Assembly (NCBI RefSeq): GCF_025950085.1
Contig: NZ_JAPDDS010000021.1
Location: 1-64,000, forward strand
Direction: 5' to 3'
Length of the DNA: 64,000 nt
Origin: Luteolibacter flavescens
GTDB taxonomy: Bacteria; Verrucomicrobiota; Verrucomicrobiia; Verrucomicrobiales; Akkermansiaceae
The notes under the pieces: generated by a model
The model's input: only the letters and a program-made list of their open reading frames with translations
Databases searched by the model: none
Told to the model about the DNA's origin: nothing
Program-made: the position numbers and the translations under genes
Shown here: positions 24,364 to 52,153 of the stretch, piece by piece
Position numbering within the stretch: position 1 is the stretch's first letter
How the letters are laid out: every line of letters begins with the position of its first letter

Positions 24364-24644
24364 AGACCCGAAAGTTTCGCCCTTATGTCCGCCGCGCACG
24401 CGGGGATGAGCATGCCGACAACTGGCGAATGGCGTTCCGCCTCGCCTTCTACCGCGAGCTTGGAAAGCCCTTCTACGTGATGGTGCAGCATGGGTTTCCC
24501 CGACTCGTGATGGAGGTGGGACCTAGCCGCCGGGAGGTGGCGATGTCGCCAATGTCCGTGGCGAGAAAATGGAACACCTTCCGGAAGTGGTCCGCCCAGA
24601 TCCAGCGCCTCGCATCAGGTAGCAACGGAAAGGAAAGATCATGA
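24360..24644 (+). CDS. Hypothetical basic early phage protein
   Basis: A 94-residue basic protein (RKFRPYVRRARGDEHADNWRMAFRLAFYRELGKPFYVMVQHG...). No family recognised. It overlaps both neighbours by 4 bp (ATGA) and directly precedes the helicase-methyltransferase gene, so it may be translated together with it. Confidence 0.55.
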   Translation: MKTRKFRPYVRRARGDEHADNWRMAFRLAFYRELGKPFYVMVQHGFPRLVMEVGPSRREVAMSPMSVARKWNTFRKWSAQIQRLASGSNGKERS

Positions 24645-27211
24645 CCCCCTACCTCGACTTCCTCCGCGCCAAGATCCCTGCCGCCGAGAAGACGGGCTTT
24701 GCCCCACCTTCCCCGCACAATGCCGGGCTGTCCCCGCATTCCCGGGAGATCTGCGACTGGGCGATCCGGCAGGGCCGCGCGGCCGTCTTCGCATCCTTCG
24801 GCCTGCACAAGACGCGCATGAACCTCCAGCTCGGCTGGTGGGTGGCCGAGCAGACCGGCGGGAAATACCTCATCGTCGCGCCGCTCGGCGTGCGACAGGA
24901 ATTCACCCGCAACGACGGGCCCGCCATGGGCATCCCCGTCCACTTCGTCCGCACCACCGCGGAGGTCGATGCCACCCGCGGGCGCGTCTTCATCACGAAC
25001 TACGAGAGCGTCCGCGACGGGAAGATCGACGTCACCCGCTTCGCCGGCGTGGGGCTCGACGAGGCGGCCGTGCTCCGCAGCTACGGGAGCAAGACCTACC
25101 AGACCTTCCTGCAGGTGTGCCGCCCGGTGCCCTACCGCTTCGTCTTCACCGCCACGCCCAGCCCGAACCGCTACAAGGAACTCATCCACTACGCCGCCTT
25201 CCTCGGCGTCATGGACAGCGGCGAGGCGCTCACGAGGTTCTTCCAGCGGGACAGCTCGCAGGCGAATACCCTCACGCTTTACCCGCACATGGAGCGGCAG
25301 TTCTGGTATTGGCTCTCCACCTGGAGCGTCTTCATCCAGCGCCCCAGCGACCTCGGCTACCCGGACACCGGCTACGACATGCCCGCGCTGAAGGTCCACT
25401 GGCACAAGCTCGACGTGGATCACACGCAGGCATGGCAGAAGGCCGACCGCGACGGCCAGCGCGCGCTCTTCCTCGACGAGGCCGCCGGCCTAAAAGAGGC
25501 CGCATCCTCGAAGCGAGGCTCGATCGACAAGCGGCTCGCGAAGGCGCGGGAGATCATCAATGCCGCCGGTGACGAAGCCGTGGCCACCTGCCAGCCGCAG
25601 CCGCACTGGCTCCTCTGGCATGACCTCGAAAGCGAGCGCCACGAGATTGAGCGGCTCTTCGCCGGTGACGACTGCCGCACCGTCTATGGCTCGCAAGACC
25701 TCGATGCCCGCGAGGACCGCATCGTGGACTTCGCCGAGGGACGGTACCGGATCCTTGCCACGAAACCCTCGCTCGCCGGCAGCGGCTGCAATTTCCAGCG
25801 CCACTGCCACAAGGCGATCTTCCTCGGGGTCGGCTACAAGTTCGCCGACTTCATCCAGGCCATCCACCGCATCTACCGCTTCGGCCAGCGCCACCAGGTG
25901 GAGATCCACATCATCTACCTCGATAGCGAGACGCCGATCAAGGACGCGCTGGAAGCCAAGTGGCGTCAGCATGACCAGCTCGTCGCCCGCCAGACCGCGC
26001 TGCTCCGCGAATACCGCCTGAAAGCCGACAATCCCATGGAACTCCTCCGCTCACTCGTCACCGGGGACGACCGCGCCGAAGCGCGCGGCCACCGCTTCCG
26101 GGCCATCCACAATGACACCGCCCTCGAGCTGCCCACCTGGGAGGCCGACAGCGTGCATGCCATCGTCACGTCCATTCCCTTCGGCAACCAATACGAGTAT
26201 AGCCCCACCTACAACGACCTCGGGCACAATACCGACAATGCCGCCTTTTTCGCGCAGATGGACTACATCGTCCCCGAGCTGCTGCGCGTGCTCAAGCCGG
26301 GGCGCGTCGCCGCGATCCACGTCAAGGACCGCATCCGCTTCGGCAATGTCACCGGCATCGGCTTCCCGACCGTCGAGCCCTTCAGCGACATGACCCGCGA
26401 GTGCTTCGTGAAGCACGGCTTCGCCTTCATGGCGAGAATCACGATCGACACCGACGTGGTGCGGGAAAACTCGCAGACCTACCGCCTGAGCTGGACCGAG
26501 CAGTGCAAGGACGGGACGAAGATGGGCGCGGGCATGCCGGAATACGTGCTGATCTTCCGCAAGCCTCCGACGGACACCAGCGACGGCTACGCCGATGACC
26601 CGGTGGCGAAGGCCAAGGCCGACTACCCCTGCGGCGACTGGCAGATCGATGCCGCCGGTCTGTGGCGGTCCGATGGCAACCGCCTGATTGAGCCGCACCT
26701 GCTGGCAGGTCTCCCGCTCGAGCAGGCGAAGCGCCTGTGGATCGCCCACTCGCAGTCGGCGCCGTATTCCCACGAGCTCCACGCCGCGATCAACCAGGCC
26801 TTCGAGGCGAAGGGCGCGCTGCCCGGATCCTTCATGCTCTTCCCGCCGATCTCGCGGAATCCCGATGTCTGGACCGACATCGCCCGCATCAACACGCTGA
26901 ACAGCGAGCAAAGCCGCCGGGCCGAGGAAAAGCACGTCTGCCCGCTCCAGCTCGACATCATCAAGCGGCTCGTCACCCGCTACACCAATGCCGGGGAGAT
27001 CGTCCTCGATCCCTTCCTCGGCATCGGCAGCACCCTCCACCAGGCCATCCGCATGGGCCGCCACGGCTGGGGCATCGAGCTCAACCGCGACTACTGGCGC
27101 ACCGCCGCCGGCTACGGCGAGGCCGCCGAGAACGAGGTCGCCCTGCCCACCCTGCTCGACCTGATGCAGGCGGAGACCGAAGCCGAAACCCCGAACACGA
27201 CCGCGGCATGA
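24641..27211 (+). CDS. SNF2-like helicase / DNA adenine-or-N4-cytosine methyltransferase fusion
   Basis: An 856-residue bifunctional protein. Residues ~30-480 are a superfamily-2 helicase: a modified P-loop AVFASFGLHKTRMNLQ (His where the last Gly of GLGKT is usual), a motif II GVGLDEAAVLRSYGSKTYQ, motif III VFTATPSPNR, and motif VI QAIHRIYRFGQRHQVEI. Residues ~490-830 are a beta-class amino-methyltransferase: catalytic motif IV VTSIPFGNQYEY and, later, the AdoMet motif VLDPFLGIGSTLHQAIRMGRHGWGIELNRDYW. The two domains in one chain resemble phage helicase-methylase fusions that mark DNA against restriction. It lies in a coupled run, overlapping the genes before and after by 4 bp. Confidence 0.88.
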   Translation: MTPYLDFLRAKIPAAEKTGFAPPSPHNAGLSPHSREICDWAIRQGRAAVFASFGLHKTRMNLQLGWWVAEQTGGKYLIVAPLGVRQEFTRNDGPAMGIPVHFVRTTAEVDATRGRVFITNYESVRDGKIDVTRFAGVGLDEAAVLRSYGSKTYQTFLQVCRPVPYRFVFTATPSPNRYKELIHYAAFLGVMDSGEALTRFFQRDSSQANTLTLYPHMERQFWYWLSTWSVFIQRPSDLGYPDTGYDMPALKVHWHKLDVDHTQAWQKADRDGQRALFLDEAAGLKEAASSKRGSIDKRLAKAREIINAAGDEAVATCQPQPHWLLWHDLESERHEIERLFAGDDCRTVYGSQDLDAREDRIVDFAEGRYRILATKPSLAGSGCNFQRHCHKAIFLGVGYKFADFIQAIHRIYRFGQRHQVEIHIIYLDSETPIKDALEAKWRQHDQLVARQTALLREYRLKADNPMELLRSLVTGDDRAEARGHRFRAIHNDTALELPTWEADSVHAIVTSIPFGNQYEYSPTYNDLGHNTDNAAFFAQMDYIVPELLRVLKPGRVAAIHVKDRIRFGNVTGIGFPTVEPFSDMTRECFVKHGFAFMARITIDTDVVRENSQTYRLSWTEQCKDGTKMGAGMPEYVLIFRKPPTDTSDGYADDPVAKAKADYPCGDWQIDAAGLWRSDGNRLIEPHLLAGLPLEQAKRLWIAHSQSAPYSHELHAAINQAFEAKGALPGSFMLFPPISRNPDVWTDIARINTLNSEQSRRAEEKHVCPLQLDIIKRLVTRYTNAGEIVLDPFLGIGSTLHQAIRMGRHGWGIELNRDYWRTAAGYGEAAENEVALPTLLDLMQAETEAETPNTTAA

Positions 27212-27901: not shown

Positions 27902-28144
27902 GTGATCCACACCATCTACCAAACCCCGCCCGTCTGCTTCGGGTATCCGGACACGCCTCCAGACGAGCAGGCCCCCGCCTTCATCGGCCAGCACACCGGC
28001 CACTTGCCGAAGCCGGGCGACACCTTCGCCCGCTACGGCGAGCACTGGACCATCACCGAATCCACCACCACCGGCAAGGCCCCGTGGACCTTCCGCGCGA
28101 GGGCGACGGCCGTCGCCGCACCCGCTCCGATCCCCGCCCCGTGA
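27902..28144 (+). CDS. Hypothetical early phage protein
   Basis: An 80-residue product from a GTG start. The middle PKPGDTFARYGEHWTITESTTTGKAPWTFRARATAV looks like a small beta-barrel; the end is Ala/Pro-rich. No family recognised. Its stop overlaps the GTG start of the cytosine methyltransferase (GTGA). Confidence 0.5.
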   Translation: MIHTIYQTPPVCFGYPDTPPDEQAPAFIGQHTGHLPKPGDTFARYGEHWTITESTTTGKAPWTFRARATAVAAPAPIPAP

Positions 28145-29115
28145 ACTACTACAACGAGCACGATCCCAAGGCCGCCGCCTGGCTCCGCGAGCTGATCGCG
28201 CAAGGGCACATCCCGGCGGGGGACGTGGATGAACGCTCGATCATCGATGTCCGACCTCATGAACTCACCCGCTACACCCAGCAGCATTTCTTCGCCGGTA
28301 TTGGCGGATGGTCTCTCGCCCTCCGGCTTGCCGGCTGGCCCGACGACCGACCTGTTCGGACAGGAAGTTGCCCCTGCCAGCCCTTCTCGCAGGCAGGCCG
28401 CGGACTCGGCACGAAAGACGCGCGCCACCTCTGGCCGGTCTTCCGCGACCTCATCACCTTCGGCGATCCTACAGTCACGTTTGGCGAGCAGGTTGCGTCA
28501 AAGGCTGGGCGTGACTGGCTCGCTGGAGTTCGCGCTGACCTGGAAGGACTGGGCTATGCCGTCGGGGCCGCCGATCTGTGCGCTGCGGGCGTCGGCGCAC
28601 CGCACATCCGGCAACGCATCTTCTGGCTGGCCGACCCCTGTCGCCAGCATCAGCCCACCGGCTCCGTGGAAAGAAGGAGTTCCATGGTGGCTTCAAAGCC
28701 GGGCGGCACGAAACATCGAGGCACTGATAGCGGGCTGGGGCACACCGACAGCCAACACGCCGGGCGGCACGCCGGAGCAAGCGATTGCCCGGAAGGAAAG
28801 TCATCCCTGCGGGAAGGTGGCGACAGCCCTTGCACACCAGGTGCAGATGGTAGGTTGGGCGACTCCTCTGGCTACGGACTGCGAGGCAGCGGGCGGCCCT
28901 CTCAATACCTGCCTCACCAACCAAGTCACTGGTCGCTATTCGACCTCATCTCCTGTGCCGACGGAAAAGCGCGGCGCATTGAACCCGGCTCATTCCCGCT
29001 GGCTCATGGGGTTCCCGCCCGAGTGGGACGACTGCGCGGCTACGGCAATGCCATCATCCCGCAAGCCGCCGCGGAGTTCATCGGTGCCTGGCTAGACCTC
29101 TCCACCTTCCCCTGA
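28141..29115 (+). CDS. DNA (cytosine-5) methyltransferase
   Basis: About 324 residues from a GTG start overlapping the previous stop. Motif I is [19 protein letters not shown] (AdoMet binding), motif IV is [14 protein letters not shown] with the catalytic Pro-Cys, motif VI is [14 protein letters not shown] (ENV-like), motif VIII is [10 protein letters not shown], and motif X is [14 protein letters not shown] near the C-terminus. The target-recognition region between VIII and X is Gly/Ser-rich and oddly low in hydrophobics, probably because the same DNA encodes a second protein in the +2 frame (28229-29095). It would protect phage DNA from restriction. Confidence 0.85.
28229..29095 (+). CDS. 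Overprinted frame inside the cytosine methyltransferase gene
   Basis: A 288-codon frame, open for 867 bp wholly inside the methyltransferase gene. It reads [23 protein letters not shown], then [24 protein letters not shown], two WPTP/WGTP segments, and ends [32 protein letters not shown]. The W-L-M-G-F-P-x2-W block resembles the segment that normally precedes motif X in cytosine methyltransferases, yet is in the other frame. The repeated Trp-x-Thr-Pro spacing is not expected of random frame noise. It may be a true overlapping gene or part of a frameshifted methyltransferase; I cannot tell which. Confidence 0.45.
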
Positions 29116-49289: not shown

Positions 49290-49820
49290 ATGGACCTATG
49301 GGATTCCCCGGTGAGAGTCATGTGGGACCCGGGCGGGGTGAGACTCGTCCTGGTGCCCTATGGCGCGCCGATGTGGGAGCCCGTGAAGGTGGACGGCCGT
49401 CAGGAGGTGCAGGTGACCGCCCCGGTGCGAGCCAAGGGCGTGGTGAACCTGCCGCGGGGCAACGAGTCCCATGCAATCGCTTTCGCACTCGCACGGGTGA
49501 AGGCCTCGCCGCTGGCCGCGGTGGAGGCGAATTTCACCGACGCGCTGCAGCTTCCCCGCGGGAAAGCCGACGTGCTGCTGTCCTTCGCCGGAGGCCGGCA
49601 ATTCCGCGTGAAGAATTGCGCGGTGCAGAGCTGGCCTCACGACCATGAGGACCACGTCTGCCGCCAGCGGGTGAGCATCTTGGGCGGCGAGATCACGCTC
49701 GATGCCGGGAGCTACGTGGAGGGGCCGGTCTGGGGCGAGGTGCCGCCCGAGTCGCTGGGCACCGAGGACGGCGAATACCTCGTGACCGAGGATGGGGAAA
49801 TCATCACCGACGAATCATGA
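49290..49820 (+). CDS. Tail-associated hypothetical protein
   Basis: A 176-residue protein: VRVMWDPGGVRLVLVPYGAPMWEPVKVDGRQEVQVTAPVRAKGVVNLPRGNESHAIAFALARVK, then LLSFAGGRQFRVKNCAVQSWPHDHEDHVCRQRVSILGGEIT and an acidic tail. Probably beta-rich; possible tail-adaptor or distal-tail protein. It overlaps the tailspike gene by 4 bp. Confidence 0.5.
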   Translation: MDLWDSPVRVMWDPGGVRLVLVPYGAPMWEPVKVDGRQEVQVTAPVRAKGVVNLPRGNESHAIAFALARVKASPLAAVEANFTDALQLPRGKADVLLSFAGGRQFRVKNCAVQSWPHDHEDHVCRQRVSILGGEITLDAGSYVEGPVWGEVPPESLGTEDGEYLVTEDGEIITDES

Positions 49821-52153
49821 TCATGAAGAAGCTACTACTTTCATCGTATCTGGCCCTTGCCGCGCTCGCGGCGGGCCAGACCAAGATTTCCGAACTGCCG
49901 GCGCTGACCGGCGCGGGTGCCGCTGCTACCGACGTGTTGCCGATCGTGGACGTGTCCGCAGGTGCCGCAGGCTCGAAGAAGATCACGCTGGCCGAACTCT
50001 TCAGCGCGCCGGTGCCGTGGAACGGGGACCTGATCTCCGCGGCGAAGGGTGGCACCGGAGTGAACAACAGCGGGCGGACGATCACGCTGGGCGGGAACCT
50101 CGTCACCAGCGGGGCGAATGCGCTCACGCTCACGACGACCGGCGCGACGAACGTGACGCTGCCGACGACCGGGACGCTGGCGACGCAGGCGGCGGTGGAC
50201 GGCAAGGCCAACACGATCGATGTCACCAAGGCCCCCTACAATGCGGTCGGGGACGGGATGCGCACGGACAACGTGGCGATCACCTCCGGCGCCGCGGTGC
50301 TAACGAGCGCGTCGGGAGTCTTCACTCCCTACTACGTCGGCAAATACATCAGGGTCGAAAATGCCGGGCCTGGAGGCGCGGACCTGATCACGACCATCGC
50401 CAGCTATCAATCGGCCACGCAGGTGACGCTGGCCGCCAATGCCGGGACCACGGTGCTCACGGGCGCGGCCCGCTCGGCCTTTTTCGGCACGAACAACACG
50501 GCGTCGATCCAAGCCGCGCTCGATGACGCCTACAACTCCGGTGTGGTGCGCGAGGTGTATGTGCCGCCGGGCATCTTCCTCGCGAACGTGCGGCAACGTA
50601 GCCATGTGAGGCTTGCCGGCTGCTACCGCGCCAACCTCCTGCACGGGCTGCCGACGATGGACTACCTGGCGTCGCGCCAATTGCTGCCGACGGCAATGAT
50701 GCCAGCGGTCGCCACGCTGCCGGTGATCTACGGGGATGTGACCAATGGGGGAGTGTTCGGTGCGCAGATTGTCGGCATCTCGGTGGTCGGCTCGGTGAAA
50801 AGGACCGGCTACGGGATCAAGCTTGGTGAGGACTATGGCGTGTCCGGAGAATACTTCGGCAACATCCGGACGCTCATCCACCACTGCAACACGGACGGTT
50901 TCAATATCGGGATTGCGTCAAGCAACGCGGTGGATGGTGAGATCTCGCACTGCTGGTCAAATGACTGCAACATCGCCTTCCAGATCTGGAGGCATGACGG
51001 AGTGCTGATCCGCAACTGCAGTTCCACCACGGCCATCACCACCTTCAAGGTCGGCGGCTCGAAGAATGTGGTCCTCCAGAACGGGAACTTCAACTACATG
51101 ACGACCGTCGTCGAGATGTCCGATAGCCAGCTCTCGGTGGGCACCATCAACGTCGAGGACCTGACCGGGAACTGTTTCGTCATGAAGCAGACGGGCGACG
51201 AGGTTCACCTGTCGGTCGATTACGTCAAGGGCCTGCGCGCGACCACCGGGGTGCTGGTGCGGAACGAGATCCCGGAGGCGACCAAGCACCAGACCTCGGT
51301 CCGCATCAATTCAAGCGCCGGGTTCGCGATCTTCGATACCGCGAACACACAGATCCCGATCGCTCTGGGCGGTCTCAACCGCATCCGACGGTACACCGAC
51401 AACACTTTCGCCACCTTGAGCCGCACCGAGAAGGTGCGGCGGGTCTATGCGAGCCTGCGGGACATGGAGGATGGCACGGTGATCAAGGATGAGTTCATCT
51501 CGCGGCAGGCGGCGTCCCCTTACTGCGAGCTGGGGTGGATCCTGACCGGGGTTTCCGGAACGGCGAGCCTCGCCGCCGGAAACAACCCGATCAATCCCGG
51601 GATGGTGCGCATCGCCTCCGGCAACAACACGTCGACCAACGTCGGTCGCCTGGCACTCGCGTCCGCACAGCTCCAGCCGCCCAACCAGAAATACTGGCGG
51701 ATGCGGTGGAAGTTCAATCTGGAGCTCCAGACGGCGGCCGTCTTTCGGATGGGGATCTACTCGCTGGAATCCGCGGTCAAGCCGCAGAACGGCGTGGGGA
51801 TCCGGGTGGACACGTCCGGCACCCCGGACACGACCGTGAAGCTGGAGCTGATCAGCGGCGGGACCTCGGTGTATGTGATCGATACCACGGTGCCGATCGC
51901 GTCGATCTCCGCGAACTCGGAGGTGACGATCCAGAGGACCAAGGAGGGAATTTCCTGCCTCCTTTGCAACTACCAAGGTGTGCCCTACGCGCCCGAGGTG
52001 TGGTTCACTCCGACGGGCCCCAATCCGCTGCCGTCGTGGGCGGTCTACATGTCGCCGGCGGTCTACAGCGGGGTCTCAGCCACATCGTTTTACGCTTACT
52101 CGCTGAGCAGCTTCGAGCTCGTTGAGTATCCCATCGGGGCGGAGTGGGAGTGA
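49817..52153 (+). CDS. Tailspike with signal peptide and pectate-lyase-like beta-helix
   Basis: A 778-residue protein. Residues 1-22 (MIMKKLLLSSYLALAALAAGQT) form a Sec signal peptide. Residues ~23-115 are a fibre-type attachment region (ISELPALTGAGAAATDVLPIVD ... ISAAKGGTGVNNSGRTITLGG, a motif widespread in phage fibres). From APYNAVGDGMRTDNVAITSG the protein is a right-handed beta-helix of the pectate-lyase/tailspike class: SIQAALDDAYNSGVVREVYVPPGIFL, IRTLIHHCNTDGFNIGIASSNAVDGEISHCWSNDCN, VGGSKNVVLQNGNF. The end is a beta-sandwich (VGIRVDTSGTPDTTVKLELISGGTSVYVIDTTVPI). It probably binds and cuts surface polysaccharide. Confidence 0.82.
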   Translation: MIMKKLLLSSYLALAALAAGQTKISELPALTGAGAAATDVLPIVDVSAGAAGSKKITLAELFSAPVPWNGDLISAAKGGTGVNNSGRTITLGGNLVTSGANALTLTTTGATNVTLPTTGTLATQAAVDGKANTIDVTKAPYNAVGDGMRTDNVAITSGAAVLTSASGVFTPYYVGKYIRVENAGPGGADLITTIASYQSATQVTLAANAGTTVLTGAARSAFFGTNNTASIQAALDDAYNSGVVREVYVPPGIFLANVRQRSHVRLAGCYRANLLHGLPTMDYLASRQLLPTAMMPAVATLPVIYGDVTNGGVFGAQIVGISVVGSVKRTGYGIKLGEDYGVSGEYFGNIRTLIHHCNTDGFNIGIASSNAVDGEISHCWSNDCNIAFQIWRHDGVLIRNCSSTTAITTFKVGGSKNVVLQNGNFNYMTTVVEMSDSQLSVGTINVEDLTGNCFVMKQTGDEVHLSVDYVKGLRATTGVLVRNEIPEATKHQTSVRINSSAGFAIFDTANTQIPIALGGLNRIRRYTDNTFATLSRTEKVRRVYASLRDMEDGTVIKDEFISRQAASPYCELGWILTGVSGTASLAAGNNPINPGMVRIASGNNTSTNVGRLALASAQLQPPNQKYWRMRWKFNLELQTAAVFRMGIYSLESAVKPQNGVGIRVDTSGTPDTTVKLELISGGTSVYVIDTTVPIASISANSEVTIQRTKEGISCLLCNYQGVPYAPEVWFTPTGPNPLPSWAVYMSPAVYSGVSATSFYAYSLSSFELVEYPIGAEWE

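Follow-up and report, generated by a model that had tools for sequence, protein, structure and literature searches.

A 64,000-nucleotide stretch of DNA from Luteolibacter flavescens (assembly GCF_025950085.1, contig NZ_JAPDDS010000021.1, positions 1 to 64,000; hereafter the window) carries two long reading frames that overlap on the same strand. The first, f1, runs on the + strand from a GTG at 28141, which overlaps the stop codon of the preceding open reading frame (ORF), to a TGA at 29115 and encodes 324 amino acids. The second, f2, is shifted by +1 relative to f1 and is uninterrupted on the + strand from an ATG at 28229 to a TAG at 29095 (288 amino acids). Judged by its sequence, f1 is a C5-cytosine DNA methyltransferase, and f2 is very probably a second gene nested inside it. 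Computational analysis of related loci shows that the dual coding and the f2 start site are conserved and that both frames are under purifying selection. On balance, we favour the reading that the two products form one two-chain C5 methyltransferase resembling M.EcoHK31I, in which f1 would be the catalytic chain and f2 would provide target recognition and motif IX.

The f1 protein matches PF00145 in Pfam above the gathering score (expectation value (E) 1e-10; 42 bits against a cut-off of 22) and PHROG 363 (E 2.8e-75). It contains, in this order, motif I (HFFAGIGGW, 28285-28311), motif IV (SCPCQPFS, 28366-28389, with PCQ and the family's catalytic cysteine), motif VI (GEQV, 28483-28494), motif VIII (10 residues, 28597-28626) and motif X (10 residues, 29035-29064), all on the + strand and recognised by their conservation in the f1 alignment. 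All five had been named in the initial annotation of this DNA, and their numbering follows that annotation and standard nomenclature. Translation likewise bears out the open span of f2 and the peptides quoted for it there. The database search then proposed for frame 2 had a divided outcome: f2 matches PHROG 1008 (E 7.1e-30) and PHROG 31772, both of which are matched by all 95 members of the f2 alignment, and it has no match among Pfam and NCBIfam models, with 0 of the 95 members matching Pfam at E 0.01. The PHROG name 'DNA methyltransferase' attached to the f2 family is an annotation, and we know of no experimental test behind it.

The second frame is kept open and under selection

Related loci were collected in four scans, each contributing its best 80: of 189 IMG/VR loci found with the f1 protein, of 83 found with the f2 protein, of at least 575 found with the f2 alignment, and of 385 bacterial-genome loci found with the f1 alignment. 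The resulting 320 loci are nearest relatives and include near-duplicates, cases from the same contig and some loci cut by contig ends. Profiles of both frames match at E 1e-3, in the identical +1 register, at all 320. None of these nearest relatives has f2 without f1, a sample outside which distant standalone forms could lie; a standalone f2 was sought with the f2 alignment, and the best 80 of the at least 575 relatives so found all had f1.

The number of stops expected in frame 2 was estimated by synonymous shuffling of the f1 codons, which keeps the f1 protein and its codon use. For the window gene alone, 3.2 stops are expected and the probability of none is 0.008 (20,000 shuffles), so that the open frame of a single gene is only moderately unlikely. 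Across 113 loci (non-redundant at 90%, from 146 with f1 intact over 270 residues, themselves from 166), 21 frame-2 stops are observed versus 323 expected and 97 loci have none at all, while the control frame 3 has 1193 versus 1095 expected. According to the initial annotation, close relatives with a broken frame 2 beside an intact f1 would speak against its reading. This was not found: bacterial-genome loci retrieved by f1 alone have 0 stops in the overlap versus 172 expected (68 loci of the 80), and viral loci retrieved by f1 alone have 4 versus 165, with 57 of 59 stop-free (59 of the 80). Viral loci retrieved by f2 have 8 versus 310 (109 loci). These last three counts refer to the overlap and not to the profile envelope, since alignment rows extend upstream of the f2 start. 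Chance is excluded as the cause of the open frame 2 across relatives.

The depletion of stops has clear boundaries. When stops are counted by position in 92 aligned genes (f1 residue numbering), frame 2 is normal over residues 1-36 (160 observed versus 134 expected), reduced over residues 37-60 (9 versus 42) and almost free of stops over residues 61-284 (5 versus 241; for residues 121-284, 0 versus 136), and it shows an excess over residues 307-324 (79 versus 41). Frame 3 deviates regionally in both directions (116 versus 160 over residues 166-220, 328 versus 237 over residues 221-284), by far less than the depletion in frame 2. An f2 ATG lies within the start zone in 241 of 250 genes, and a Shine-Dalgarno motif precedes the start-zone ATG in 158 of the 250, compared with 156 of 1701 internal f2 ATGs. 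In the window, the corresponding element is GGGGG (28218-28222, + strand), a weak, non-canonical Shine-Dalgarno-like run 6 nucleotides upstream of the f2 ATG. The f1 codons at these positions are skewed: Arg32 is encoded by AGG in 70 of 250 genes (28%, versus 8.4% elsewhere) and Asp36 by GAT in 153 of 198 (77%, versus 40% elsewhere). The codon choice of f1 is bent to create the start signals of f2. The signal is weaker in the Firmicutes-type set, where 37 of 51 loci have an f2 ATG in the scanned zone and 21 of 51 have one with a Shine-Dalgarno motif.

Some loci depart from this layout at one end or the other. No stop separates f2 from the downstream gene at five loci (L099, L100, L101, L120 and L044), where f2 continues in frame; by eye, the continuation is nuclease-like in L099 and L101 and adenine methyltransferase-like in L120 and L044. 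At L128 it is f1, not f2, that runs on into the downstream gene. In phage PMG1 (L004, about 1498-2398) the first f1 residues lie in a different frame from the remainder and f2 is intact, and in LPPA33 (L330) the f1 match starts only at residue 50; in these two records f1 is either broken, affected by sequence error or recoded.

Substitutions were classed by their effect in both frames over 497 gene pairs from 160 sequences, the pairs being non-independent. The ratio that reports on f2 (dNN/dNS, with N for nonsynonymous, S for synonymous and f1 named before f2) is 1.24 upstream of the f2 start, then 0.24 (core overlap), 0.33 (recognition region), 0.18 (segment before motif X) and 0.34 (motif X). 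Over the same five regions, the ratio that reports on f1 (dNN/dSN) is 0.03, 0.07, 0.37, 0.17 and 0.03. Purifying selection thus acts on both frames, and in the recognition region and ahead of motif X its strength is about the same for each. Among changes silent in f1, the rate of those creating an f2 stop relative to those causing an f2 missense change is 0.52 upstream of f2, falls to 0.004 in the core, is 0.10 and 0.09 in the two regions that follow, and reaches 0.44 in motif X. A smaller sequence set is concordant, except that dNN/dNS past the f2 end is 0.45 and not near 1 (few changes: 36 and 42). The codon-position analysis in homologues that had been suggested for both frames therefore found selection in each, and the idea that f2 constrains the recognition region of f1 is borne out.

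Cassettes in f2 and their counterparts in actinophages

Frame 2 comprises a conserved N-terminal half followed by W-x-T-P units and a 19-residue C-terminal segment. In the window (all on the + strand), the N-terminal conserved element at 28454-28609 is predicted to form a helix and a beta-hairpin, from blocks with a predicted local distance difference test score (pLDDT) of 77-86 at f2 residues 81-120 inside an otherwise poor model. Cassette comparison delimits three cassettes, beginning WPTP (28628-28735, with a similar cassette in L169), WGTP (28736-28855) and WATP (28856-28978). They are followed by a candidate motif IX-like segment of 20 residues (28979-29038), which resembles the segment before motif X in actinophage enzymes. 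L251, W258, L259 and M260 of the C-terminal segment are invariant in 95 sequences. The units have a median length of 42-43 residues, and their number per f2 ranges from 0 to 5 in the window's group (3 in the window) and from 0 to 6 in the Firmicutes-type group. The columns of f2 conserved at 90% or more contain no D, E, H or K, and for this reason a nuclease or other enzyme was set aside as a candidate identity for f2. A structure search with the poor f2 model is uninformative: it returned four viral proteins at E of 0.001 or below, with 32-36% identity and template modelling (TM) scores of 0.13-0.23, which are apparently f2 relatives.

The same cassette types are seen again in distant backgrounds and in either frame. 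With a heuristic grouping, 97 cross-group pairs share at least 50% identity, 30 of which link actinophage f1 with f2 of the window's group, and 21 pairs of cassette types are found adjacent in both orders. One type joins the f2 of L009 to the f1 of the mycobacteriophage-like L423 at 72% identity. Single-linkage clustering merged 716 cassettes and a stricter grouping was used instead; the 587 cassettes of the window's group are an overcount, type 8 (32 members) being a pattern mis-hit on the N-terminal hairpin.

The recognition region of f1 is low in hydrophobic residues. In the window, the hydrophobic residues ILMFVWY make up 10% of f1 residues 167-262 versus 30% of residues 1-166, and the medians over 216 relatives are 14% in the recognition region versus 30%, in line with the low hydrophobicity noted in the initial annotation. 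Residues 186-254 and 287-300 of f1 have pLDDT below 50; the recognition region of f1 is predicted to be disordered, and the model gives f1 no confidently folded recognition region.

Actinophage methyltransferases carry the C-terminal half of f2, in frame, inside the enzyme itself. In 21 non-redundant loci (of 30), MMG-x-P occurs in frame 1 between motifs VIII and X in all 21, and W-x-T-P occurs 60 times in frame 1, 27 times in frame 2 and 3 times in frame 3. The f2 profile matches the frame-1 stretch between motifs VIII and X in all 21 loci at E below 1 (best 42 bits, 6e-13; weakest about 0.01), and in a profile-profile comparison f2 residues 134-276 align with this stretch with 95.6% probability (E 1.1e-8). 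When f1 is aligned with the actinophage enzymes, the best alignment spans motifs I-VIII, and the f1 profile has no match to the f2 profile. The initial annotation had suggested that a 15-residue piece of f2 looks like the segment that should precede motif X, and its equivalent in actinophages indeed stands just before motif X in the enzyme's own frame.

At 12 of the 21 actinophage loci (L423, L427, L428, L429, L431-L435, L437, L438 and L447) f2 stops exactly three codons before a frame-1 W/L-x-T-P cassette, and at four more it stops 44 codons before. The cassette array thus leaves frame 2 and continues in frame 1 at the border between two cassettes.

A proposed two-chain methyltransferase and its alternatives

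In the mechanism that we propose, f1 and f2 would be initiated separately from one phage-type DNA stretch. The catalytic domain, with motifs I-VIII and X, would come from f1. From its own ATG within f1, f2 would supply what in other C5 methyltransferases lies between motifs VIII and X, its W-x-T-P array (cassettes of about 40 residues) recognising DNA and its LMGFPPEW segment serving as the motif IX-like part. Acting on f1 in trans as the recognition chain, f2 would complete one enzyme, and the pair would mark phage DNA against host restriction. We infer, accordingly with this scheme, translation of f2, its binding to f1, one DNA target per cassette and protection against host restriction. A broader proposal, put forward tentatively and with slightly less than even confidence, is that phages of several phyla share an overprinted combinatorial methyltransferase. 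Cassettes of about 40 codons would be shuffled between phages as two-frame modules. In one frame they would encode recognition units and in the catalytic frame a linker that is tolerated, and the methylation pattern could thereby change with neither frame broken; in actinophages, the array would cross frames.

The small chain of M.EcoHK31I, a natural two-polypeptide C5 methyltransferase with the target YGGCCR, is encoded inside the large-chain gene in another frame, and the window locus shows such a nesting. The larger polypeptide of M.EcoHK31I holds motifs I-VIII and X, as f1 does, and the smaller holds IX (PMC3404938); the enzyme is termed a naturally split methyltransferase (PMC3439449) and listed with a Type II restriction-modification system (PMC6456624). 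The f2 segment falls at the place of motif IX by its actinophage match, and the possible likeness to M.EcoHK31I concerns the motif split. The smaller chain of the window differs in carrying several W-x-T-P cassettes, and, unlike the Type II setting of M.EcoHK31I, no Type II restriction endonuclease was recognised among the 15 window ORFs scanned. C5 methyltransferases can reassemble from fragments (PMC3404938; PMC3439449), and in M.AquI two chains make up one such enzyme (PMC3404938). Unlike M.AquI, the window locus keeps motif X in f1 and its genes are nested. In the multispecific methyltransferases of Bacillus phages, the recognition modules belong to the reading frame of the enzyme and lie between motifs VIII and IX, whereas the window's cassettes lie in the second frame. 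In those phage enzymes, tandem recognition domains confer multiple recognition sequences (PMC8936443). In arrangement the f2 cassettes are similar, being tandem, of about 42 residues and variable in order.

Several observations weigh against a two-chain enzyme. Before motif X, f1 keeps a conserved, atypical segment of its own, and because this is as constrained as f2 there (0.17 versus 0.18), f1 may be complete on its own. The N-terminal half of f2, which overlaps motifs I-VIII, has no assigned role. The structure model of f2 is poor (mean pLDDT 61.7, predicted TM score 0.28), and a profile search of f2 against the PDB returned nothing up to E 10. The MMG-x-P segment is collinear with HhaI residues 280-307, directly before HhaI motif X, at a non-significant -3.7 bits (HMMER), an agreement in position only. 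Six patterns served to retrieve the actinophage loci, and one of these was built from the MMGW segment itself; actinophages also retain a piece of f2 and have cassettes in both frames, and Gordonia phage Neville, among the 13 more distant named phage records scanned, has no f2 profile match. The predicted recognition domain of M.EcoHK31I is placed in the larger chain (PMC3404938); here it is proposed to be in f2.

The conserved f1 stretch before motif X, the conserved f2 N-terminal half, which is not known to have a counterpart in ordinary methyltransferases, and the lack of Pfam matches across the f2 alignment would also fit an f2 that is a real protein with its own function (a regulator, an anti-restriction protein or a DNA-binding accessory), merely nested in the gene of a complete enzyme. 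We hold this to be unlikely, if worth keeping in mind: the C-terminal half of f2 is found at the recognition position within actinophage methyltransferases, none of the 320 nearest relatives has f2 without f1, and f1 is modelled without a confidently folded recognition region. Programmed recoding, in which ribosomes would change from the f1 frame into that of f2 (and back again) and so produce a single long enzyme, had been left open in the initial annotation next to two overlapping proteins. It could account for the displaced f1 N-terminus of PMG1 and for the 12 actinophage loci in which the array changes from frame 2 to frame 1 a fixed number of codons after the f2 stop. Yet stops in frame 2 occur at their normal frequency until the start zone and almost vanish beyond it, and ribosomes that left f1 ahead of motif VIII would not translate this motif, which f2 overlaps, while f1 stays open. 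Recoding is very improbable, because f2 has its own ATG and Shine-Dalgarno start site inside f1, and the data support two overlapping proteins. Least probable of all is an untranslated f2, held open by f1 conservation and codon skew or by RNA or DNA structure. The stop probability for the single window gene is not extreme and would allow it, but synonymous shuffles predict hundreds of stops, also at 38-60% G+C, the depletion has its limits where f2 starts and stops, the total counts for frame 3 come close to expectation, and amino-acid changes in f2 are selected against.

Distribution, annotation and genomic context

By record titles, the overlap is kept in genomes of Proteobacteria, Verrucomicrobia and Planctomycetes, and it is also kept in Firmicutes phages. 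The f2 profile matches the +1 frame in 12 of the 13 more distant phage records, including Rhodobacter, Klebsiella, Vequintavirus, Lacticaseibacillus and Paenibacillus phages and C75C1; in mycobacteriophage Fancypants the match is partial only (35 bits). Relatives of Paenibacillus phage Pagassa (51 non-redundant of 80 loci, G+C 38-60%) have 3 frame-2 stops over residues 76-280 versus 279 expected. In this set, the W-x-T-P pattern occurs 123 times in frame 2 and 0 times in frames 1 and 3, and LMG-x-P is present in frame 2 of 41 of the 51. A scan for f2 only found a match in 11 of the 286 genomes of a class-wide sample, the window's genome included, a patchy distribution.

Existing annotation is uneven. 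When the annotated frame is assigned by comparing reading frames with profile matches, 18 phage records comprise four with both frames as coding sequences (K1ind2, K1G, fTaEco03 and Pagassa), three with f2 alone (PMG1, LPPA33 and Cy-LDV1) and 11 with f1 alone. The four dually annotated phages resemble the window locus in having both frames, and their f2 is named 'DNA methyltransferase' or 'putative methyltransferase' with the note 'Mte8-like'. In PMC5582158, the only paper found to use this name, 'Mte8-like' occurs once and the words methylase, methyltransferase and overlap are absent. The arrangement is not of a new kind, because some deposited records already annotate both frames and a two-chain enzyme that divides its motifs in the same way is known. 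What is new is the breadth of conservation, the evidence of selection and the shuffled cassettes in the second frame; in the open-licence literature we found no description of broad phage conservation of the overlap, of two-frame selection or of second-frame shuffled cassettes. To our knowledge, few long same-strand gene overlaps in which both proteins are conserved have been documented other than in small viruses. In the present case, an overlap of more than 800 bases is kept across phyla, yet f2 is missed by Pfam and NCBIfam models and most of these phage records annotate f1 only. If f2 does pick the target, studies that produce only f1 would overlook the specificity of a common phage enzyme or assign it wrongly, and it might become possible to tell from a cassette array which restriction sites are hidden by a phage.

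Six of ten further window ORFs match PHROGs, including a terminase large subunit, a portal protein, a head maturation protease and a DnaC-like helicase loader, and because of these phage matches among its neighbours the locus probably lies within a prophage. Just upstream of f1, positions 24641-27211 encode an 856-amino-acid protein that matches a PHROG family of helicases (E 6.4e-95) as well as Pfam N6_N4_Mtase (E 6.8e-20), with SNF2 and Helicase_C matches under the Pfam cut-offs; it is a second, different methylase. A 778-amino-acid ORF 3' of the head genes (49817-52153) matches a PHROG named for pectin lyase activity (E 3.8e-11).
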